Assembly (NCBI GenBank): GCA_905182175.1
Contig: CAJJAT010000014.1
Location: 1 to 64,000 of the forward strand
Origin: Flavobacteriales bacterium UBA1494
GTDB lineage: Bacteria > Bacteroidota > Bacteroidia > Flavobacteriales_E > Vicingaceae
Reading direction: 5' to 3'
Length of the DNA: 64,000 nt
The stretch's first letter is position 1. Each line of letters begins with the position of its first letter. Below are positions 7,920 through 60,075 of this stretch, in pieces. The notes under the pieces were generated by a model that was given only the letters and a program-made list of their open reading frames with translations, did no database searches and was not told the DNA's origin. The translations under genes and the position numbers were made by a program.

Positions 7920-8489
7920 CTAAACCCCCAACCTTTTCACCACCAAACTCTCCACTTTTTGAAACATGGTCTGTGGCGTATATGTTCTCCAATTTAGGTC
8001 TTCTAAATCACCACCGGCTACTATGTAGTAATCTATGTTCGCTTCTTGAAAGTCAGCCATTACGTGCTCTCTAAAATTTACAAAAGCAATCCAACCATCT
8101 TCCACATCATCGAACCATTCTTCATAGTAAGAATCGTCTGACGAATGATAATTCAGAACATTCTCGCCAACCATTATAAATTTGTTGATGCCAGCATCAA
8201 CCAATTCATCAATGATATTCCTTTTTAGAAACATTATGTCGTTGTGCAACAAATCGTTCCACTCCCCTATCATTTCTATCGTAGCAAAACCCTCGTCATA
8301 ATCAACATATAAAATCTTTATGTACAGCGTTGGAGACTCAATTTCATCCCATTGTGGGTGAATTACGTGATCATAGATCGCATGAGTGAATTCGAATTCG
8401 TTGTAAATCCGACCGAAAAATGGAGAATTTTTATCTTCTGAAGCGATATAGTGATCTCTCCAACGGTAATGTGGTTCAATTGCATGCAT
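7920..8489 (-). CDS. Conserved hypothetical protein next to murQ
   Basis: 189 residues, acidic, with many Tyr/Trp/Asp (SSDDSYYEEWFDDVEDGW). No signal peptide or membrane helix, so probably cytosolic. I recall related proteins of the same length beside murQ in other Flavobacteriales, with the same MH-IEP-Y-WR start and the HPQWDEI and LIGEWND blocks, but I know no function. ATG at 8489. It is separated from murQ by about 130 bp containing a 14-bp tandem repeat, so it may or may not be cotranscribed. Confidence 0.8.
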   Translation of the reverse strand: MHAIEPHYRWRDHYIASEDKNSPFFGRIYNEFEFTHAIYDHVIHPQWDEIESPTLYIKILYVDYDEGFATIEMIGEWNDLLHNDIMFLKRNIIDELVDAGINKFIMVGENVLNYHSSDDSYYEEWFDDVEDGWIAFVNFREHVMADFQEANIDYYIVAGGDLEDLNWRTYTPQTMFQKVESLVVKRLGV

Positions 8490-8543
8490 GAATTAAGAAA
8501 CGGATAGTGATTGGAAAATGTTTTGAAGTTTGTACAATTACAA

Positions 8544-8599
8544 ATGGAGAATGTGGAATGGAGAATGTGGAATGGAGAATGTGGAATGGAGAATGTCGG
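8544..8599. repeat. Tandem repeat, four 14-bp units
   Basis: Four head-to-tail copies of ATGGAGAATGTGGA (8544, 8558, 8572, 8586); the first three are identical and the last ends CGG. It lies in the gap between murQ and the 189-aa gene. Small overlapping open frames across it are probably fortuitous. Confidence 0.9.
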
Positions 8600-8618
8600 A
8601 TGAGAAGCGGAGTTTATT

Positions 8619-9422
8619 CTAAAAATTAGAAATAGCATTTCGAACACTGCCGTACTTTTCTAATAGCTCCCTAGCCTCTTCGTAGCTTATTTTTAATTCA
8701 GAAACAATCATTTGAACGCCCCTTTTAACCAACTTGTTATTTGTTAGCTGCATGTCAACCATCCGATTTCCTTTTACTCTTCCTAAGCGAACCATAACCG
8801 CTGTAGAAATCATATTCAATACTAACTTCTGAGCTGTGCCTGCTTTCATTCTAGTACTACCGGTCACAAATTCCGGACCCACAACAACCTCGATTGGATA
8901 ATCGACTGAAGCAGCCAAGGGAGATTCATCGTTGCAAACAATACAAGCGGTAGCAATATTATTGTCTTTGCACTTCTCCATAGCTCCAATTACATATGGT
9001 GTTGTTCCTGAAGCTGCAATTCCTATTACAAAATCTAATTCCGTAACGTTATACTCTATCAAATCCTTCCAACCTTGCTCTTGATCATCTTCCGCATATT
9101 CTACTGCTTTTCGGATGGCTAAATCCCCTCCTGCAATAAGTCCAATAACCAAATCAAAGCTTACCCCAAAAGTTGGCGGACATTCTGAAGCGTCAATCAC
9201 TCCTAAGCGGCCACTAGTGCCTGCACCCATATAAAACAAACGACCTCCATCTTGTAACCTTTTTACAATTAAAGGAATAATAGCCGAGATCTGAGGAATT
9301 ACCTTTTCGATCGCGTAAGCAACAATCTTATCCTCTTTATTAATGTTTGTCAATATTTCTTCTACACTCATCTTTTCTAGATTGTTGTGCTTGCTTTCCG
9401 ACTCGGTGGTTGGTTTATTCAT
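8619..9422 (-). CDS. murQ: N-acetylmuramic acid 6-phosphate etherase
   Basis: 267 residues, the short form typical of Bacteroidota (E. coli MurQ is about 298). It cleaves the D-lactyl ether of MurNAc-6-phosphate to GlcNAc-6-phosphate, recycling cell-wall sugar in the cytosol. The SIS-fold signature is clear: YMGAGTSGRLGVIDASECPPTFG (about 64-86), then AGGD, the catalytic-region ESPLA, and GPEFVTGSTRMKAGTAQK. The ATG at 9422 keeps the family N-terminus (TTESESKHNNLEKMS). No murP or anmK is adjacent. Just upstream is a dead hydrolase gene, whose stop at 9427 nearly touches this start, suggesting a former operon. Confidence 0.96.
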   Translation of the reverse strand: MNKPTTESESKHNNLEKMSVEEILTNINKEDKIVAYAIEKVIPQISAIIPLIVKRLQDGGRLFYMGAGTSGRLGVIDASECPPTFGVSFDLVIGLIAGGDLAIRKAVEYAEDDQEQGWKDLIEYNVTELDFVIGIAASGTTPYVIGAMEKCKDNNIATACIVCNDESPLAASVDYPIEVVVGPEFVTGSTRMKAGTAQKLVLNMISTAVMVRLGRVKGNRMVDMQLTNNKLVKRGVQMIVSELKISYEEARELLEKYGSVRNAISNF

Positions 9423-9426
9423 GCTT

Positions 9427-10053
9427 TTACGCTAATTCTTTGTTTATTATTTTACTGATAGCGATTGCTTCATCTGCAATCATAAAATGCCCTCCATTCG
9501 TAATTCTGTACTCCCCATTGTTGGGCCATATTGGAAACAATCTATCTTTGGCTCCATGAATACGAATTGCATCCATTTTTATTGAGCTAGACTGCCAAGT
9601 TAATGTTTTATCTAAAGACCATTTCACAGAGCTTTCATCAGTCTCTCCAAAAATATCGTCCAATAGCAAAGAGTTTGTGCCAAACACTCTTTTAGCCAAC
9701 CAAAAAGGCAGTTTAAAACCGAAGCTAGGAATCAGCTTAATTAATTTCAATCTTCCAACTAATCGATAGATTGGCAGTAACTCCAATTGGTCTTGAATTG
9801 TTGAAATTAGAATGAGCTTTTGGGACTTTATAAATTTTCACAACCCTTGCGCAACAAGGCCACGGAAACTAACTCCTAATAAAGCAAATTGCTTGCTTGT
9901 GTCAATTTGGTTCTGCAATCGTGGAACGTAAGAGGAGCGCTATTCGCCAGGCTCATTTTTAATCCATGTAACGGGAAAGAATTCATGTGTACGTATTATG
10001 TATTTAGAACCCATCTCATCAGCACCCAAACCGCCTATTCCATCTACTTTCAC
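9427..10053 (-). pseudogene. Alpha/beta-hydrolase gene inactivated by two in-frame stops
   Basis: A single minus-strand frame of 209 codons from a GTG at 10053 to 9427 reads as a short alpha/beta-hydrolase of a Bacteroidota family (about 220 residues): a start like GLGADE, then QNQIDTSKQFALLGVSF (nucleophile elbow), LILISTI, YRLVGRLKLIKLIP, and a C-terminal acid/histidine part (IHGAKDRLFP, NGGHFM). It is interrupted by TAG at 9940-9942 and TGA at 9838-9840. The elbow reads G-V-S-F-R, losing the second Gly of GxSxG. Only 9427-9837 is still open (up to 137 codons), without the catalytic Ser. It starts 8 bp after the aminopeptidase stop and ends just before murQ. Decay or two sequencing errors are the options; decay is more likely given the elbow change. 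Confidence 0.8.
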
Positions 10054-10061
10054 TCAACCAT

Positions 10062-11099
10062 TTATAAAGACTCGTATCGTCCTTTAAACGAAGTTACCAT
10101 TTCCTTCAAATCTCCATTGAACTCTTTTTGCAATTGTTTCCCCAATTTTGGCAAGTCGCTTGAATAGGTTGAAAAACCAGAAAAATAAGCGTTATTAAAT
10201 TCTAGTTTATCAAGCCATACTCGTCCTTTAAGCGAATCCGAAAAGAAGTTAATCTCAAATAACCCTTCTCTGATTTTTTCTATTTGCTGAAGCTTCATGG
10301 CTCTTCTTTTTTCAATGGTTTGAGTTGTATCTATCTTTCCATAAAACCCATTTAGCACGTTAATCTCTTTTCTCAAATAATCCTTATAGACATTCCTCCG
10401 AATCCGAGAATTCTTGTAATCCCTCAGCTCTTTACTTTCTTCTCCAAATTTGTACGCCAAGAATTTCTCGGCGCCTAACTTCCCAACAAAGCTTGCTAGG
10501 TTTTCGTTAAAAGCGGCGCTATCCTTCACATACAAAGTAGCGTGAGTAGACTCGTGAATTATTAATTCAGCCAAGGAACCTGAACCTCTCTGTAACATAG
10601 ATGAAAGTATTGGATCTTTAAACCAGCCCAATGTCGACCAAGCATTTACTTCATCTAACTCCGTGTCAAATCCCTTAAAATTCATCTCCGCCTGTATTTC
10701 TTTTGCAATTTCTAAATCGAATGATCCTTTGTAAGGGAAACTGCCCGCAATTGGAAATGACCATTCGTACGCCTTGATTTCAAATTCAGGACTAGCGGTC
10801 ACCACCCATAAAATTGGCTTTCCCTTTTGATCGTAAAAAGTAGAATAATTTTGAGTTTGATTCAATCCTAAAAACTGCTCAGAAAAGGCTTTGACCTCGG
10901 CAATGTATTTGAATTTATCTTTTGTAGAATCTGGGAAGGTTGAATCTGTCAATAACCCTTCAATTTTTTTAGCATTCCAAAGTACCTCAGCTTGGCCCGC
11001 ACCTTGCTGCAAACCGTAAATTATCGATTTCAGATTGATGAATCCAAACCCAACTATCACGATTGCAATTAATGTATATGCCTTTTTATGCTTGCGCAT
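10062..11099 (-). CDS. Predicted zinc aminopeptidase (COG4324, Aminopep/DUF2265 family)
   Basis: 345 residues. An N-terminal hydrophobic segment (8-25) anchors or exports the protein. The zinc-peptidase motif HESTH is at 182-186, followed by a downstream acidic ligand candidate in FNEN (about 197-200), and preceded by the family block STLGWFKDPILSSM (155-168). The family is described as predicted aminopeptidases, usually envelope-associated; substrate unknown. The start overlaps the end of the MarC gene by 14 bp, and the decayed hydrolase follows after 8 bp, so these form an operon. Confidence 0.88.
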   Translation of the reverse strand: MRKHKKAYTLIAIVIVGFGFINLKSIIYGLQQGAGQAEVLWNAKKIEGLLTDSTFPDSTKDKFKYIAEVKAFSEQFLGLNQTQNYSTFYDQKGKPILWVVTASPEFEIKAYEWSFPIAGSFPYKGSFDLEIAKEIQAEMNFKGFDTELDEVNAWSTLGWFKDPILSSMLQRGSGSLAELIIHESTHATLYVKDSAAFNENLASFVGKLGAEKFLAYKFGEESKELRDYKNSRIRRNVYKDYLRKEINVLNGFYGKIDTTQTIEKRRAMKLQQIEKIREGLFEINFFSDSLKGRVWLDKLEFNNAYFSGFSTYSSDLPKLGKQLQKEFNGDLKEMVTSFKGRYESL

Positions 11100-11730
11100 G
11101 AATAATTTCTTTTAAGATAGGTTGTAATCCGCTAAAAAAGAATTCAACAGCAATTACCATCATAATCAACCCCATTAACCGCATCATAATTTTATTGCCG
11201 GTTTTACCAATCAAAACAGTTATTTTTCCTGAGCTCCATAACACCAGAAAACTTAAAAAACAAACCAACAGAATTGACCCAATTACGATTCCTTTCATCT
11301 CAAAAGTTTTCGCGTCCTCCATCAATACAATTGCATTTGTGATGGCTCCCGGGCCGCAAATCATTGGAATTGCTAAAGGGGTTACCGAAATATCATCTTC
11401 ATATTCTCGGTTCACTGACTTCTTATTCATTTTAACCTTCACTAATTTAGCTTGTAGCATGTCCCAGCCCATCATAAAAAAAATAATTCCCCCAACCATT
11501 CGGAAACTATTGACTGAAATACCAAAGAACTTAAATAATAATTGGCCAGAAAATGCAAACAAAATAAGCGTTAGAGCTGCCACCATATTGGCTTTTCGCG
11601 CAATTACTTTTCGTTCTTGTTTATCCAAGGAATCGGTCATTGTCATAAATACCGGCATAATACCTAGGGGATTCATTAAAGTGACGAATGAGGTGAAGCA
11701 AAGAAGCGCAAACGATAGATAAGTGTCCAT
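11086..11730 (-). CDS. MarC/YchE-family inner-membrane protein
   Basis: 214 residues with six predicted membrane helices and the family blocks FVTLMNPLGIMPVF (15-28) and the central PLAIPMICGPGAITN. MarC proteins are multi-pass membrane proteins; the early link to multiple antibiotic resistance was not sustained, and the YhgN/SnatA branch was proposed to carry neutral amino acids, so the substrate here is open. The 3' end overlaps the aminopeptidase gene by 14 bp, implying translational coupling. A CACTTTTG element about 15 bp before the ATG resembles a -7 box with one mismatch. Confidence 0.9.
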   Translation of the reverse strand: MDTYLSFALLCFTSFVTLMNPLGIMPVFMTMTDSLDKQERKVIARKANMVAALTLILFAFSGQLLFKFFGISVNSFRMVGGIIFFMMGWDMLQAKLVKVKMNKKSVNREYEDDISVTPLAIPMICGPGAITNAIVLMEDAKTFEMKGIVIGSILLVCFLSFLVLWSSGKITVLIGKTGNKIMMRLMGLIMMVIAVEFFFSGLQPILKEIIHAQA

Positions 11731-11837
11731 TGAGTTGTTAATTTTTGCAAAAGTGCGATTTATTGCAGAATCTCAATGAAATAAACACAATAATTCTTCG
11801 TTAATTTCATGAGTTTTTAGTTTAGACTCTCGCCCTT

Positions 11838-11968
11838 TATAGTTTGGCGAAGTAATATTTACCTATGCATGATTTCTTAGGACTTTTTGTGTGGGTCTGC
11901 TAAATAAGATAAGCGGATTGTTTTGTTGGGAATGGCTTTGGAGTTTAAACTTCAAAGTCATTTTTTTT
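11838..11968 (+). promoter_or_regulatory. Structured leader or small-RNA candidate before the SDR gene
   Basis: The 260-bp gap holds several inverted repeats on the plus strand: CCTA..TAGG (11862-11880), an 8-bp hairpin with G-U pairs (GGTCTGCT/AGCGGATT, around 11893-11917), and a terminator-like palindrome at 11932-11961 followed by eight T. GACTTT at 11881-11886 is complementary to AAAGTC at 11954-11959 inside that terminator, so an alternative anti-terminator pairing is possible. A weak -7-like TATAGTTTG lies at 11838-11846. It matches no riboswitch class that I know. It could be an attenuator or a free small RNA. Confidence 0.35.
11932..11968 (+). terminator. Terminator-like palindrome 22 bp before an SDR start codon
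   Basis: A 30-bp near-perfect palindrome from ATGGCTTTGG to CTTCAAAGTCAT (11932-11961) with G-U-compatible mismatches, followed directly by TTTTTTT. In sequence it is a good intrinsic terminator on the plus strand, yet no protein gene lies upstream on that strand, and the SDR ATG is at 11991. Confidence 0.6.
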
Positions 11969-11990
11969 GTTACATTAAAAAGTAAAATAT

Positions 11991-12695
11991 ATGGATTTAA
12001 AAAATGCAAAAGTTATCATAACAGGAGGGAGCTCAGGACTAGGAAAAGCAATGGCTAAATTATTAATTGAGCTTGGAGCAAAGGTCCTAATCACAGGTAG
12101 GAATGTTGAAAAATTGAATGCTGTAGCGCAAGAAATTGGAGCAATTCCATTTCATGCAAATGTAGCTGAACAAAGAGATGTAATTGCAACTTTTGAAGCG
12201 GCAAAGAAAGAATTAGGCGGTTTAAACGTTTTAATAAACAATGCCGGAATTGCATCTAGTTGGTCTAAAATAAACCAATTAGACATAGATCAAATGAGGA
12301 AAGTCTATGATGTGAATGTTTTTGGTGCTGCAATGATGGGAAAAGAAGCCGCCAAAATTTTTATTGAGCAAAAGAGTGGAAATATTGTGAACATTGCTTC
12401 TACCGCTGCATTAAATGGTTTCCCCGGAGGAACGATTTACAGCTCTTCAAAATTTGCATTACGCGGAATGAGCCAGAATTGGCAACAAGAATTGAGAAAG
12501 TTCAACATTCGAGTTTTCAACATCAATCCGAGTGCTGTTCCAACCGCTTTTAATGTGGAAGATAGATCTGAAAGAAAAGAAGAAGCAAACAAGTTAACAT
12601 CAGCTGAAGTAGCTCATGCAATAATTGGAGTGCTGCAGATGGATGAAAGGGGTTACATTCCTGAATTGAGTGTTCATGCAACAAATCCTTTTTAG
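11991..12695 (+). CDS. Short-chain dehydrogenase/reductase (classical SDR)
   Basis: 234 residues. Cofactor motif TGGSSGLG (11-18), NNAG (84-87), and the full catalytic tetrad Asn110, Ser138, Tyr151 and Lys155 (YSSSK). The residue after strand 2 is TGRN, and the Arg suggests NADP(H). It is cytosolic and probably reduces a ketone or 3-oxoacyl group; DltE-like and FabG-like annotations are both possible, and the substrate cannot be told. Monocistronic: the upstream leader has terminator-like structure and a strong terminator follows at 12733. Confidence 0.88.
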   Translation: MDLKNAKVIITGGSSGLGKAMAKLLIELGAKVLITGRNVEKLNAVAQEIGAIPFHANVAEQRDVIATFEAAKKELGGLNVLINNAGIASSWSKINQLDIDQMRKVYDVNVFGAAMMGKEAAKIFIEQKSGNIVNIASTAALNGFPGGTIYSSSKFALRGMSQNWQQELRKFNIRVFNINPSAVPTAFNVEDRSERKEEANKLTSAEVAHAIIGVLQMDERGYIPELSVHATNPF

Positions 12696-12732
12696 TAAAA
12701 GATATATCAAAATTAACTTATCACAACAAAAT

Positions 12733-12762
12733 AAAAAAGGCTGCTACATGGCAGCCTTTTTT
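12733..12762. terminator. Strong intrinsic terminator after the SDR gene
   Basis: Perfect 12-bp stem AAAAAAGGCTGC, loop TACATG, GCAGCCTTTTTT. A and T runs on both sides make it usable from either strand; the gene on the plus strand ends 38 bp before it. The remaining gap to 12904 shows nothing else. Confidence 0.9.
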
Positions 12763-12904
12763 ATTCCCATACTTCTTTAACAAAAAAACACCTTTTTCTA
12801 TTTAAGCCTTTGATCATGCCTCACTTTTATGATCTATTAAACCCTATCGATTATATATTTACGATCATTTTTCCAGAATCAATATCCCAACAAAACATCT
12901 GGCT

Positions 12905-13807
12905 TTACTCCCACAATTCCTTTGCTACCCTGTAGGTGTTAGCATGTGCCTCTACAATGTATTTTATTTCTTTCGAATAACCTCCGCCCATGCTCGCCAT
13001 GACCGGTATGTCCGCATTATATGCAAATTGAAGTACTCGCTCATCTCTGCGTTTGCAATCTTCAATACTAACTCCTAAGCGCCCTAATTTATCCGTCTCT
13101 AAAATATCTACTCCACACTGGTAAAAGATGAAATCAGGTTTCACTTCTTTCATTAATTTGGGTAAATATTGGTCTAGTAAAGCCAGGTAATCCGCTCCAA
13201 TAATACCATCTGGCAAACCAACATCTAGATCAGATTTTTCTTTTCGTAACGGATAATTATGTTCCCCATGCATGCTAAAGGTAAATACTCGAGGTTCATT
13301 CTCAAAAATCTTAGCCGTTCCATTTCCTTGGTGAACATCTAAATCAATTATTACTATTTTCGAAGCTAACTTATTTCGCAACAAGTAAGACGACGCTATA
13401 GCTTGGTCATTCAACAAGCAAAAACCCTCTGCTCTATCTGCATAAGAATGATGTGTTCCTCCTGCAATGTTAAATGCAACCCCGTGCTCTAATGCATATT
13501 TGGCTGCTTGCAAACTACCTCCAGTAATGTATAGCTCTCGTTCTATTAATTCATTAGAGTGAGGAAAACCCGACCTCAACTGCTCTTGCCGAGTTAACTG
13601 TAAACCGGAAAGCTTCTCCCAATACGCTTTATCGTGAATAGCGAGCACATCTTCCAAATCAATCTTATTTGGTCGAAAGAAGTTTTCTTTTGTAAGTATG
13701 CCTTCGTGCAACAATTGCTTGGGCAACAGGTCATATTTATCCATCGGAAAACGATGGTTATCCGGAAGAGGGTGAATATAAATGGGAGACCAGGCGACTT
13801 TGATCAT
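12905..13807 (-). CDS. Histone-deacetylase-family protein (acetoin utilization/AcuC-like)
   Basis: 300 residues from the ATG at 13807. A longer frame opens at 13834 but begins inside the upstream terminator, so I reject it. The class I/II deacetylase fold is visible: GGTHHSYADRAEGFC (about 117-131, with the His-His pair), the zinc ligands in IIDLDVHQGNGT, the H-G-E-H-N segment, YQCGVDILETDKLGRL, and the active-site SMGGGYS. It should hydrolyse an amide-linked acyl group (an acetyl-lysine or acetylpolyamine) in the cytosol. It is probably part of a minus-strand group with the SDR at 13892, although a terminator intervenes. Confidence 0.92.
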   Translation of the reverse strand: MIKVAWSPIYIHPLPDNHRFPMDKYDLLPKQLLHEGILTKENFFRPNKIDLEDVLAIHDKAYWEKLSGLQLTRQEQLRSGFPHSNELIERELYITGGSLQAAKYALEHGVAFNIAGGTHHSYADRAEGFCLLNDQAIASSYLLRNKLASKIVIIDLDVHQGNGTAKIFENEPRVFTFSMHGEHNYPLRKEKSDLDVGLPDGIIGADYLALLDQYLPKLMKEVKPDFIFYQCGVDILETDKLGRLGVSIEDCKRRDERVLQFAYNADIPVMASMGGGYSKEIKYIVEAHANTYRVAKELWE

Positions 13808-13831
13808 GATGGTATTTAAACTTTTCTTTAA

Positions 13832-13873
13832 CAAAAAAAAAGACCTCCAAAGATTCTAACTATTGGAGGTCTT
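13832..13873 (-). terminator. Terminator after the 13.9-kb SDR gene
   Basis: Perfect 11-bp stem AAGACCTCCAA / TTGGAGGTCTT (13840-13850 with 13863-13873) and 12-nt loop, followed on the minus strand by eight or more T. It ends the transcript of the gene at 13892-14770. Confidence 0.88.
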
Positions 13874-13891
13874 CTATGAATTTTAAATAAT

Positions 13892-14770
13892 CTACTTCTT
13901 ATTTTTCCCTCTAACTTCCTTCTCTATGTGATCCCACATTTCTGCAGGAACAGCATCTAGTCCTGTAAATTCTCCTGCTCCGTAAAGCCATTCGCCACCG
14001 TCAATAGTAACTACTTCGCCGTTTACGTATGCAGAAAACTCCGACATTAAATAACCTGCTAAGTTGGATAACTCTTGGTGCTCTCCATATCTCTTTAATG
14101 GAATTCTTTTAAGTGGATCAATTTTCTCCTTTAATCCTTCTGGAAATAATCTACTAAACGCACCCGTTGTTGGAAATGGTCCCGGAGCAATTGCGTTTGT
14201 TCTAATGCCATATTTCGCCCATTCTGCGGCTAACGAACGAGTCATTGTTAATACTCCTGCTTTCGATACTGCCGATGGAACAACATAGCCTGAGCCTGTC
14301 CAAGAATAGGTAGTTACGATATTTAAAACAGTTCCTGCAATTTTATTCTTAATCCAATACTGTCCCATTAATAAAGAGCAGTTGTAAGAACCTTTTAATA
14401 CGATATCTACAATCACATCAAATGCCTTTGGAGACAAACGTTCCGTAGGACTAATGAAATTACCTGCAGCATTGTTCACTAAACCGTTGATTTCTCCAAA
14501 AGTCTCAATTCCTTTCGCAATTAACTTCTCCACCTCCAAAGGCTTTCTAACGTCACAAGGAACAGCTAAAATTTTACCACCCGTTTCTTCAATCAACTCT
14601 TTCGCAGTTGCATCTAACACTTCCTGTTTTCTACTTGCAATAATCACATTCGCTCCTAATTGCATGAAGTACTTGGTCATGGATTTTCCTAAACCAGTTC
14701 CACCACCGGTTACTAATATAGTTTTTCCCTGCAGCTCTTCAGCCTTGAACATTGGTTCTGTATATTTCAT
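13892..14770 (-). CDS. SDR oxidoreductase, 2,4-dienoyl-CoA reductase-like
   Basis: 292 residues from the ATG at 14770, which follows the upstream gene's stop by one base; a longer frame from 14803 would run into that gene. Cofactor motif TGGGTGLG, then NNAAGNF. The usual catalytic Tyr is absent: the site reads SAVSK instead of YxxxK, as in the 2,4-dienoyl-CoA reductase branch (DECR), which also keeps the Lys but not the Tyr. The C-terminus (NGEVVTIDGGEWL) fits this branch. Likely role: NADPH-dependent reduction of 2,4-dienoyl-CoA in beta-oxidation of unsaturated fatty acids. The substrate is inferred from family only. Confidence 0.88.
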   Translation of the reverse strand: MKYTEPMFKAEELQGKTILVTGGGTGLGKSMTKYFMQLGANVIIASRKQEVLDATAKELIEETGGKILAVPCDVRKPLEVEKLIAKGIETFGEINGLVNNAAGNFISPTERLSPKAFDVIVDIVLKGSYNCSLLMGQYWIKNKIAGTVLNIVTTYSWTGSGYVVPSAVSKAGVLTMTRSLAAEWAKYGIRTNAIAPGPFPTTGAFSRLFPEGLKEKIDPLKRIPLKRYGEHQELSNLAGYLMSEFSAYVNGEVVTIDGGEWLYGAGEFTGLDAVPAEMWDHIEKEVRGKNKK

Positions 14771-14771
14771 A

Positions 14772-15128
14772 TTATTTCTTTTTAAATTGATTTGATTTAC
14801 CATTTAGTCCAAAAATGGAATTTAAAATTGACATAACTAAACTCAATAACAATGCCCATAATAATCCATTAACACCGAAGCCATCTACAAGTTTATCAGC
14901 TATCAATATTATAATTGCATTGATGCAGAAAAGAAACAAGCCTAATGTTAAAATGGTAATCGGGATGGTTACAATAATTAATAATGGTTTTACGAAAGCA
15001 TTTAATATTGCTAATACAATAGCGACAATAACAGCAGCATAAAACCCATCTACCTCCACACCTGGGAGCAAATAAGATGCGATGATTAATGCTGCTGCGT
15101 TCAATAAAAGTTTAGGAATCCAAGTCAT
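14772..15128 (-). CDS. YvlD/phage-holin IV family small membrane protein
   Basis: 118 residues with four hydrophobic helices and the family sequence YLLPGVEVDGFYAAVIVAIVL with NAFVKPLL (PF04020). These are chromosomal inner-membrane proteins of unknown function; despite the family name there is no phage context here. The stop is followed after one base by the DECR-like gene, so the two are cotranscribed. A consensus -7 box lies 67 bp upstream. Confidence 0.85.
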   Translation of the reverse strand: MTWIPKLLLNAAALIIASYLLPGVEVDGFYAAVIVAIVLAILNAFVKPLLIIVTIPITILTLGLFLFCINAIIILIADKLVDGFGVNGLLWALLLSLVMSILNSIFGLNGKSNQFKKK

Positions 15129-15194
15129 GGTTTTATTTGTAGTTCAGTTTGGTCAACAGCAAGCCTATTTCAGTTTTCACTTTCATGCTTCCTT

Positions 15195-15202
15195 CAAAGG
15201 TA
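15195..15202 (-). promoter_or_regulatory. -7 promoter box (TACCTTTG) upstream of the YvlD gene
   Basis: Exact TAnnTTTG match on the minus strand in an otherwise noncoding gap. The leader of about 60 nt contains a 17-codon open frame (ATG at 15186, stop at 15133) immediately before the YvlD start; whether it is translated is unknown. Confidence 0.5.
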
Positions 15203-15236
15203 AATGATTTTCCAAATCTAAAACGATACATTCGAT

Positions 15237-15695
15237 TTAAAAAAATGAAAACTCCTTCTCTTTTAAATTTCCAGTTTCCCAAGCATTTAAAAGAAAGAAC
15301 ATATTTTTAAAACGATAACCTCTATCATGCCCAGGAAGCGCGTGACGCATTTCCACACAAAGCGTTGTATTTGAACCTCTTTCATGACACTCTTCTGAAG
15401 GATAATCGAAGGTTTTTAAATACTCATGAATTACTTCTAAATTTGAAAAGTCAACATCATTGCACCTCTCTCCCGCAAGAGTATGCATTTTCGACTCATT
15501 TCCAAATTGCTGTTGTGCTAACATTATGTCATTTCTCACTTTTTGATCTATTGCTAGAATACTATCTAAAAAGATTCTTCTCTTCTCGATTTTATCGAGG
15601 TCTTTTACGGTGAACTCCTTTGGCTCTTTTGAGCTACAAGATGAAATAATAAGGCTCAAAAGGATTATTATTATTATTATGTTATTGTTTTTCAC
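15237..15695 (-). CDS. Putative lipoprotein, unknown function
   Basis: 152 residues. N-terminus MKNNN followed by a run of six Ile encoded by an ATT/ATA microsatellite (about 15,660-15,680), then a lipobox-like LIISSC with Cys20. The mature part has three further cysteines and a HALPGHDRGYRFKNMFFL block. I do not recognise the family. Likely tethered in the periplasm or outer membrane. It stands alone, with a 270-bp gap upstream. Confidence 0.65.
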   Translation of the reverse strand: MKNNNIIIIIILLSLIISSCSSKEPKEFTVKDLDKIEKRRIFLDSILAIDQKVRNDIMLAQQQFGNESKMHTLAGERCNDVDFSNLEVIHEYLKTFDYPSEECHERGSNTTLCVEMRHALPGHDRGYRFKNMFFLLNAWETGNLKEKEFSFF

Positions 15696-15967
15696 TTTAC
15701 TTAATTATTAGGTTCATAAAACGAACCACTAAGGACACTAAGTTCCCAAAGGCTGTTATCACATTTGAGATGATTACTTATTCCACGGCTTAAATCATTC
15801 ATCTTATAAAACCTACCACTAAATATCCTATATTTAAATATAGAATGCACCCATTATAATTTCACTTTCAGTTTTTATCAGAAAAGTCATTGGAGTTCAG
15901 AAAACCTCTATTATTTCTTTCAACTCCACTCCGACTTCGCTTAGTGCACGACATCCGGAACTCTCTT
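15696..15967. other. Noncoding gap with a 16-bp palindrome and a dispersed-repeat-like string
   Basis: No gene seen. It holds the perfect palindrome CTATATTTAAATATAG (15828-15843) and the string ACCACTAAGGACACTAAG (about 15,725-15,742), a phrase I associate with scattered intergenic repeats in Bacteroidota. Confidence 0.4.
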
Positions 15968-17236
15968 CTATTGCGAAACCAGTTGCATCAGCTGTGCACA
16001 GAAAATTGCCCCAAACGTTCCAACGGCATAACCAAAAACAGCTAACAAAACGCCTACCGGAGCTAAAACTGGACTAAATGCCGAAGCCACAATTGGTGCA
16101 GAGGCTGCTCCGCCAACATTGGCTTGACTGCCTACCGCAACAAAAAAGAACGGTGCTTTTATAATCTTTGCTACAACGAGCAGGATAATGACATGCACAC
16201 ACATCCATATAATTCCGATTAAGAACAATTCAAGATTATCGAAAATAGCTAAAATGTCCATTTTCATTCCAATTGTTGCGACCAATACATATAGAAAAGC
16301 ACTTCCGAATTTAGATGCTCCTGCTCCTTCGTAAGACTTCAACTTTGTGAATGAAAAAATTAACCCCATGATGGTAGCAATTACTACCAACCAAAAGAAA
16401 TGACTAGACATAGATGTTAAACGATACGCCTCTAAGAACTCTTTCTTCGTTTGCATGATTGGCGTAATCAAATCTGCCCCAAAATGAGCAATGGCTGTTC
16501 CGCCAAAACCAATAGCGCAAATGGTAATAATATCGGACAAATTTGGAACTTTGGTAATGCTTGCAGCGTAATCTTCTATCCCTTTTTTAACTTCTTCAAT
16601 TGCCGAAGAGTCAGCTTTTAACTTCTTATCTAATTTCTCGGTCATTCCAGCACCAATTAATAAAAAGGCCATCCAAATGTTAGCAACAATTACGTCAACT
16701 GTTATCATGGCAGAGAACAATTGATCACTTGCTCCATAAATTTCTTTCATTGCAGTTTGGTTGGCTCCTCCGCCAATCCAACTTCCTGCAACAGTGGCCA
16801 AACCTCTCCACACTTCATCAGGTCCAGAGCCTCCAATCAAATCTGGGGCAAAAGCTGACACTGCTAATATTGCAATCGGACCGCCTAAAATAATTCCGAG
16901 CGTACCTGCAAAAAACATAATAATTGCCTTTGGACCAAGCTTAGTTATTGCTTTTAAATCTATCCCTAAACACAGCAAAACTAAGGATGCAGGCAATAGA
17001 TATCGAGATGCAACGAAATACAAACTAGAAGTTTCACCAGAAATAACCCCTAAAGAATTCAAAACAGAGGGAACAAAATAACAGAGCAATAAAGCGGGTA
17101 TGACTTTGTAAAATTTTGCCCAAGTTGGATTTTTACTGCCTGAGGTTTTAAAAATAACCGCTAAAATAGTTAGCAGTATGCCTAAAACAACTGCATCGTT
17201 GGTGATAAAAGCGGCAGCTTCTGATGTTCCTTCCAT
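15968..17236 (-). CDS. DUF819-family multi-pass membrane protein
   Basis: 422 residues from the ATG at 17236; the frame can extend to a TTG at 17260, but this falls in a promoter-like TATCTTGG. About ten or eleven hydrophobic helices, with conserved loops GSWIGGGANQTAM and the C-terminal VGGAASAPIVASAF typical of DUF819 (YjcL-like). Members are inner-membrane proteins suspected to be transporters; no substrate is established. No operon partner: SirB1-like gene lies 57 bp upstream on the same strand. Confidence 0.88.
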   Translation of the reverse strand: MEGTSEAAAFITNDAVVLGILLTILAVIFKTSGSKNPTWAKFYKVIPALLLCYFVPSVLNSLGVISGETSSLYFVASRYLLPASLVLLCLGIDLKAITKLGPKAIIMFFAGTLGIILGGPIAILAVSAFAPDLIGGSGPDEVWRGLATVAGSWIGGGANQTAMKEIYGASDQLFSAMITVDVIVANIWMAFLLIGAGMTEKLDKKLKADSSAIEEVKKGIEDYAASITKVPNLSDIITICAIGFGGTAIAHFGADLITPIMQTKKEFLEAYRLTSMSSHFFWLVVIATIMGLIFSFTKLKSYEGAGASKFGSAFLYVLVATIGMKMDILAIFDNLELFLIGIIWMCVHVIILLVVAKIIKAPFFFVAVGSQANVGGAASAPIVASAFSPVLAPVGVLLAVFGYAVGTFGAIFCAQLMQLVSQ

Positions 17237-58733: not shown

Positions 58734-59984
58734 ATGTCATATTTATTTACCTCAGAATCTGTATCGGAAGGGCATCCAGATAAAGTTGCAGATCAGATTT
58801 CTGATGCATTAATCGATAACTTTTTAGCTTTTGACAGCGAGTCAAAAGTTGCTTGTGAAACGTTGGTTACAACAGGACAAGTAGTACTAGCAGGAGAAGT
58901 AAAATCCAAAGCCTATTTAGACGTTCAAATAATTGCTAGAGAGGTAATCAACAAGATTGGTTACAATAAAAGTGCATACATGTTTGACGGAAATAGTTGT
59001 GGCGTATTTTCTGCAATTCACGAACAATCTCCCGACATTAATCAGGGTGTTGAAAGAGCAAATAAAGAAGATCAGGGAGCAGGTGACCAAGGAATGATGT
59101 TTGGCTATGCGAACAATGAAACAGCTTCGTACATGCCATTGCCCCTAGAGATTTCTCACATGCTTTTAAAAGAGTTAGCTAAATTGAGAAGAGAAAATAA
59201 TGAGATTACGTACTTGAGACCAGATTCAAAGTCACAAGTGACCATTGAATATGATGAAAATAACAAGCCTGTAGGAATTGATGCAATTGTTATTTCAACA
59301 CAACATGATGATTTTGATAGCGAGACAAACATGCTCGCAAAAATCAGAAAAGACATGATTGAAATTTTGGTACCTAGAGTAAAAGCTTTGCTACCTGAAA
59401 GCATTCAAGCCCTTTTCGACGATTCAATAACCTACCACATTAACCCAACCGGAATTTTTGTAATTGGCGGACCTCATGGTGATACTGGACTAACAGGAAG
59501 AAAAATTATTGTTGACACATACGGTGGAAAAGGCGCTCACGGTGGAGGAGCTTTTTCGGGAAAAGACCCCAGTAAAGTAGACAGATCCGGAGCATATGCA
59601 ACAAGACACATCGCTAAGAATTTTGTTGCTGCAGGTTTAGCTGACGAGATTCTAGTGCAGGTAGCCTACGCTATTGGAGTAGCTGAGCCGATGGGTTTAT
59701 ATGTAAACACATATGGTACCTCAAAAATTGACATCACTGATGGTGAGATTGCCAAAAAGCTTTCAGCAATTTTTGATATGAGACCTTATGCTATTGAAAC
59801 CAGATTTGCATTAAGAACTCCTATTTATTCAGAAACTGCTGCTTACGGCCACATGGGAAGAACTTGTGAAACAGTGGATAAGACATTTACATCTCCAAAT
59901 GGAGAAACAGTAAGTATGACCGTTAAATTATTCCCTTGGGAAGAATTAAACTACGTAGATAAAGTGACCGCTGCTTTTAAGTAA
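58734..59984 (+). CDS. metK: S-adenosylmethionine synthase
   Basis: 416 residues. Makes SAM from methionine and ATP. Family motifs: [15 protein letters not shown] (8-22), [12 protein letters not shown] (about 117-128), [21 protein letters not shown] and the P-loop [22 protein letters not shown] at 58734 follows an A-rich leader; TACTTTAG at about 58,698 is a -7-like element. Convergent with der across a strong terminator. Confidence 0.98.
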
Positions 59985-60004
59985 ACGGCAACTTCTATCA
60001 AAAT

Positions 60005-60050
60005 AAAAAACCTTTGGTCATCGAATATATTCGATGACCAAAGGTTTTTT
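60005..60050. terminator. Bidirectional terminator between metK and der
   Basis: Perfect 20-bp inverted repeat (AAAAAACCTTTGGTCATCGA with its complement at 60031-60050) around ATATAT. It carries A and T runs at both outer ends, so it can stop metK (+) and der (-). Confidence 0.93.
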
Positions 60051-60075
60051 TGTGTCTTGTTTACTTTTGAATTCT

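Follow-up and report, generated by a model that had tools for sequence, protein, structure and literature searches.

The window (the whole stretch of DNA that was analyzed, 64,000 nucleotides from Flavobacteriales bacterium UBA1494) includes a marC gene and a divergent gene for a short-chain dehydrogenase (SDR), which are separated by an intergenic region with an intrinsic terminator and, probably, the gene for an independent small RNA. The features of this locus are:

11086-11730, minus strand: marC, encoding a MarC family membrane protein (PF01914, E 1.1e-56), divergent neighbor of the predicted small RNA.
11748-11776, minus strand: candidate sigma-A-type promoter of marC, TTG-N18-CACTTTTG, recognized by eye, back to back with the candidate RNA promoter.
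11777-11804, plus strand: candidate promoter of the RNA, TGAAAT-N15-TCGTTAA, exact in four of five genus copies; the copy in G001 has TGTAAT.
11807-11968, plus strand: predicted small RNA with a putative 5' end, conserved in G001-G004; its length is about 162 nt here and about 84-101 nt in relatives.
11928-11968, plus strand: intrinsic terminator with a 17-bp stem (11928-11965), a 4-nt loop, and eight T (11961-11968).
11991-12695, plus strand: SDR gene (PF00106, E 2.9e-52), the downstream neighbor, outside the conserved unit.
12905-13834, minus strand: HDAC-family gene, the next gene after the SDR gene.

The marC-SDR-HDAC gene order (11086-13834) is also present at a locus in another genus (L079), which suggests that the SDR gene may be an ancestral one that the sampled relatives in the genus have lost. 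A GC-rich hairpin at 12735-12765, 3' of the SDR gene, has A and T runs at its sides and is terminator-like for both strands; the loose terminator pattern picks out its minus-strand half. A small-protein reading of the intergenic stretch was rejected; the overlapping open reading frames encode only 20-55 amino acids on either strand.

The original prediction for this region described a terminator-quality palindrome followed by eight T, on the same strand as the SDR gene and 22 bp 5' of its ATG (11991), with no upstream plus-strand gene to terminate; the analysis bears out both statements. The extent first given for the palindrome (11932-11961) locates the hairpin but understates its length, as the stem has 17 pairs and spans 11928-11965. 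The fold of 11926-11968 has an energy of -18.1 kcal/mol (z -6.6), which none of 200 shuffled sequences equals. The hairpin is thus exceptional in fold strength, although the loose terminator pattern is common: on both strands of 8000-16000 there are five matches where 4.7 are expected, which is no rarer than chance. Assignment of the hairpin to the opposite-strand HDAC gene was rejected because, by eye, its minus-strand side lacks a T run. As the T run is found only on the plus side of the stem and no plus-strand gene lies upstream, a transcript that ends here would be expected to begin between the hairpin and marC. The small RNA would be transcribed on its own and away from marC, with its promoter within the shared region at about 11777-11804, its start near 11807, and its end at the terminator (11928-11968).

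Conservation of the region was assessed in the genomes of the family. When 46 genomes of the family were searched at the DNA level, the 3' part of the RNA was found in G003 (88% identity, E 5e-11) and G004 (90%, E 2.6e-12); weaker DNA matches in other family genomes are not counted as homologues. A MarC protein search matched 13 of the 46 genomes, including the genome of the window itself and its congeners G001-G004; marC was not found at the threshold of this search in the fifth genus relative, the draft genome G005. The RNA is present upstream of marC in all five genus genomes with marC, that is, in the window's own genome and in four of the five relatives, where the SDR gene is absent. The next gene is the HDAC gene in G003 and G004 and, from reading the sequence, in G002; in G001 the RNA is followed, by eye, by the 3' end of the next gene, encoding a reductase. 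A close copy of the SDR protein was not found in any of the five genus relatives, the best SDR-type match per genome having just 30-34% identity. Conversely, in two other genera (G019 and G040) marC and the gene of a 234-residue SDR are direct divergent neighbors, and no terminator separates them. Since relatives have the RNA without the SDR gene, and G019 and G040 have the SDR gene without the terminator, the two features occur independently.

These results bear on the two functions that were originally proposed for the palindrome, namely that it is part of an attenuator or riboswitch acting on the SDR gene, or that it forms the end of a free small RNA. Conservation of the RNA in four genus relatives without the SDR gene supports the second. 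The first, in which switching between terminator and antiterminator controls the SDR gene, is very unlikely: an attenuator should travel with its target gene, and this one does not, in either G001-G004 or G019 and G040. The hairpin does lie 22 bp from the ATG on the same strand, and no separate SDR promoter was recognized by eye between 11968 and 11991, as an attenuator would have it. The proposed antiterminator, a pairing of GACTTT (11881-11886) with AAAGTC (11954-11959), exists as a sequence match, and two further hairpins are present in the fold between GACTTT and the terminator, as had been suggested; its role in a switch is unsupported. When the upstream stretch is shuffled by mononucleotides 2000 times, 52% of the shuffled sequences contain at least one such 6-mer match, and folding in both states gives -28.2 kcal/mol for the forced antiterminator versus -44.8 kcal/mol, a cost of 16.6 kcal/mol; this comparison applies to the GACTTT/AAAGTC pairing only. 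The 5' half of the pairing falls in an insert that is missing from G001-G004. A search of the whole window against Rfam 15 identified no riboswitch at gathering score; only a tRNA reaches its cut-off, in agreement with the initial impression that the element belongs to no known class. Reading the element as a gene-specific switch was plausible but probably wrong, and is corrected here.

A gentler connection to the SDR gene is possible, though doubtful. Partial read-through, specific to this species, would allow the promoter of an old small RNA to drive the SDR gene as well, with the terminator setting the level of SDR expression; this is compatible with an independent small RNA. Just 22 bp separate the T run from the ATG, and in G019 and G040, where the SDR gene adjoins marC without a terminator, it presumably has a promoter of its own. 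Against this, unregulated read-through is by itself not attenuation.

The preferred reading is that the plus strand from about 11807 to 11968 is probably a small RNA gene in its own right, divergent from marC and conserved in the genus, with the SDR gene downstream in the present species by what would be happenstance. The RNA has its own intrinsic terminator, no upstream gene on the same strand, and conservation independent of the downstream gene, which are among the features expected of an independent intergenic small RNA. This reading is built on what the analysis shows: the RNA is conserved, it lies beside marC also where the SDR gene is absent, it has a predicted structure, and its terminator is polar, with the T run on one strand. 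From 5' to 3', the aligned genus copies consist of a conserved 5' block with TCGTTAA at its end, the two small hairpins (1 and 2), TGTTTTGTT, and the terminator. The internal parts of the window copy are:

11811-11829, plus strand: hairpin 1 (GAG...CTC), from the fold; 20 of 20 alignment cells are paired in four sequences, with no two-sided change.
11830-11850, plus strand: hairpin 2 (UCGCC...GGCGA); two pairs have two-sided changes, both contributed by the window copy.
11851-11917, plus strand (borders approximate): about 66 nt inserted in this species between hairpin 2 and the G/U segment and missing from four relatives.
11918-11930, plus strand: G/U-rich conserved segment UUGUUUUGUUGGG, a candidate seed or protein-binding site.

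The RNA as a whole folds with a z-score of -4.1 in the window and -4.1 to -6.2 in the four relatives. Hairpin 2 is missing in G001; single-sequence minimum-energy folds of G002 and the window agree with hairpins 1 and 2, while in those of G003 and G004 the 5' part forms other pairs. The sequence TGTTTTGTT is invariant in all five genus copies; the 13-mer of the four relatives, AATTAATCGTTAA, is not found exactly in the window copy. The G/U segment is predicted to be mostly open in the relatives (mean unpaired probability 0.60-0.98) and paired in the window (0.21). The shorter copies in the relatives offer a clean minimal form of the RNA.

The insert holds an extra hairpin (about 11861-11896), and no second copy of it exists in its own genome. 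Its positions 11854-11885 (32 nt) match, at 91%, a coding sequence in G027 that presumably specifies a monomeric isocitrate dehydrogenase; there are further matches of 25 nt in G021 and 15 nt in its own genome. All three are in unrelated places, and as sources of the insert they are rejected as probable chance matches.

Sequence conservation in the relatives supports the RNA, while covariation, which had been proposed as a check at the outset, lends its structure only slight support. In the alignment of five terminators 90.6% of cells are paired; three pairs show two-sided changes, a score equaled in 50 of 500 shuffles and approximately equaled by a slide of +1. Hairpin 2 has two such pairs (52 of 500 shuffles as high), the four relatives alone have three (109 of 500), and RNAalifold on three sequences identifies one covarying pair. 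A covariance model, R1, built from the four relatives with the window copy excluded, matches the window copy (48.2 bits; E 6e-8 over the window), which is its sole match at E<=0.1 in the genome. The match begins at 11869, bypasses hairpins 1 and 2 of the window copy, and uses the insert in their place, so the score derives from the 3' half. The runner-up in the window (59957-60072, minus strand; 19.6 bits, E 0.056) contains an inner hairpin and is probably due to chance. Weaker R1 matches in the family (24 among the matches listed) were discarded by eye: most look like ordinary terminators after genes, one of them after a tRNA, and a few among those listed look like coding sequence. Other motif matches in G000 and G005 were rejected as paralogues, as they read as coding sequence.

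Terminator-like hairpins beside marC extend beyond the genus. Thirty-three marC loci were scanned by one rule, a terminator-like hairpin no more than 330 nt from marC on the divergent strand; 20 of these were from other families, drawn from a 395-genome sample of the class. The hairpin is found at 5/5 genus loci, at 5/8 loci of other genera in the family (L078, L080, L082, L083, and L085; not L079, L081, or L084), and at 0/20 loci of other families. The hairpin counted at L082 is weak (-11.8 kcal/mol); that locus also has a stronger one, with no T run immediately after it. In the 20 nt 5' of the stem, the G/T fraction is 0.75, 0.85, 0.80, 0.75, and 0.95 for the genus copies, 0.80 for L078, 0.70 for L080, 0.75 for L083, and 0.90 for L085; it is low at L082 (0.50) and at a second hairpin of L085 (0.45). 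For 85 control terminators the mean is 0.44 (sd 0.15), and two are at or above 0.8, with one of the controls (L119) being the G003 locus itself. To call the loci beyond the genus homologues is a guess, made on position and composition.

Persistence of the terminator while the rest varies, including its occurrence at five of eight marC loci in other family genera, is also what would be expected of an insulating terminator, which would keep divergent antisense transcripts of the marC promoter from running into the opposite-strand HDAC gene, with the RNA itself functionless; in G003 and G004 the terminator indeed faces the 3' end of that gene. An insulator has no need of the conserved 5' block, the small hairpins, or the invariant 9-mer just before the stem, however, and G019, G040, and G038 manage without the terminator; this explanation is unlikely.

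For the independent small RNA, a candidate for the promoter is TGAAAT-N15-TCGTTAA, which looks like a promoter of the ECF-sigma type with its CGT box; similar CGT-box promoters are reported for Flavobacterium psychrophilum, and the sigma-A-type consensus is given as TAnnTTTG, in the same source (PMC9723704). A search of the genus with the TGAAAT-N15-TCGTTAA pattern yielded three orthologous sets, one of which is the RNA locus; the other two were rejected as members of an ECF regulon, since they fall in the coding sequence of divergent neighbors. These neighbors are presumably an HD-hydrolase-like gene, beside a gene for a PorX-like response regulator, and an acyl-ligase-like gene. The stretch 5' of the response regulator gene, which we take to be PorX-like at each of the loci (L138, L129, L127, L125, and L126), is nearly identical in five genus genomes, and this near-identity extends just beyond the coding part of the divergent neighbor.

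No match to Hfq was found in the six genomes of the genus, by a search that was positive in 5 of 14 named control genomes, and each of the six has one match to RRM_1. For bacteria without detectable Hfq, the RNA is a further small RNA candidate, conserved and as yet un-named. The RRM protein RbpB of Bacteroides is reported to bind small RNAs built from a seed sequence and a terminator (PMC11697453), and mRNAs of Bacteroidetes are described as being without Shine-Dalgarno sequences (PMC6847099). Taken together, the lack of an Hfq match, the RRM protein, the RbpB-bound RNAs, and the leaders without Shine-Dalgarno sequences make it a reasonable guess that a G/U seed meets A/C-rich leaders. We infer that the RNA may act in trans, its G/U-rich segment pairing with mRNAs at A/C-rich translation starts, independently of Hfq and perhaps with the single RRM protein of the genome. 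The predicted pairing of this segment in the window copy speaks against such a mechanism, as do the searches for targets. Perfect complements of the G/U segment number 43 in the six genomes, four being the RNA locus itself; the other 39 compare with 25 matches for a reversed-pattern control, an enrichment that is not convincing, and among the 26 non-self sites listed none is a convincing start-codon target. The combined proposal of a new, one-family group of Hfq-independent small RNAs, with an envelope-stress-type sigma promoter, A/C-rich targets, and an insert that masks the seed and tunes SDR read-through, is highly improbable as a whole.

A small RNA at MarC family intergenic loci of Bacteroidetes was not found in the open-licence literature, which is weak evidence of absence. 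The best sub-threshold local Rfam match to the RNA, HrrF from Haemophilus (RF02728; 18.8 bits, E 0.43), is far below its gathering score of 77 and is treated as chance. In enterobacteria, the R1 region of GcvB is an open G/U-rich segment for C/A-rich translation starts, and the RNA described here likewise has a G/U-rich segment that could meet such starts; unlike the case of GcvB, the genus has no Hfq match and no convincing target was identified among the sites listed. The FopS/GibS small RNAs of Bacteroides thetaiotaomicron, which act with RbpB, have a seed region, and the genus considered here also has an RRM_1 protein; compared by description, the window RNA differs in having one locus per genome as seen, 5' hairpins, a seed beside the terminator, and no Rfam match. 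Rfp18 and other independent small RNAs of F. psychrophilum, as described in PMC9723704, resemble the window RNA in that they are structured small RNAs conserved within a genus.
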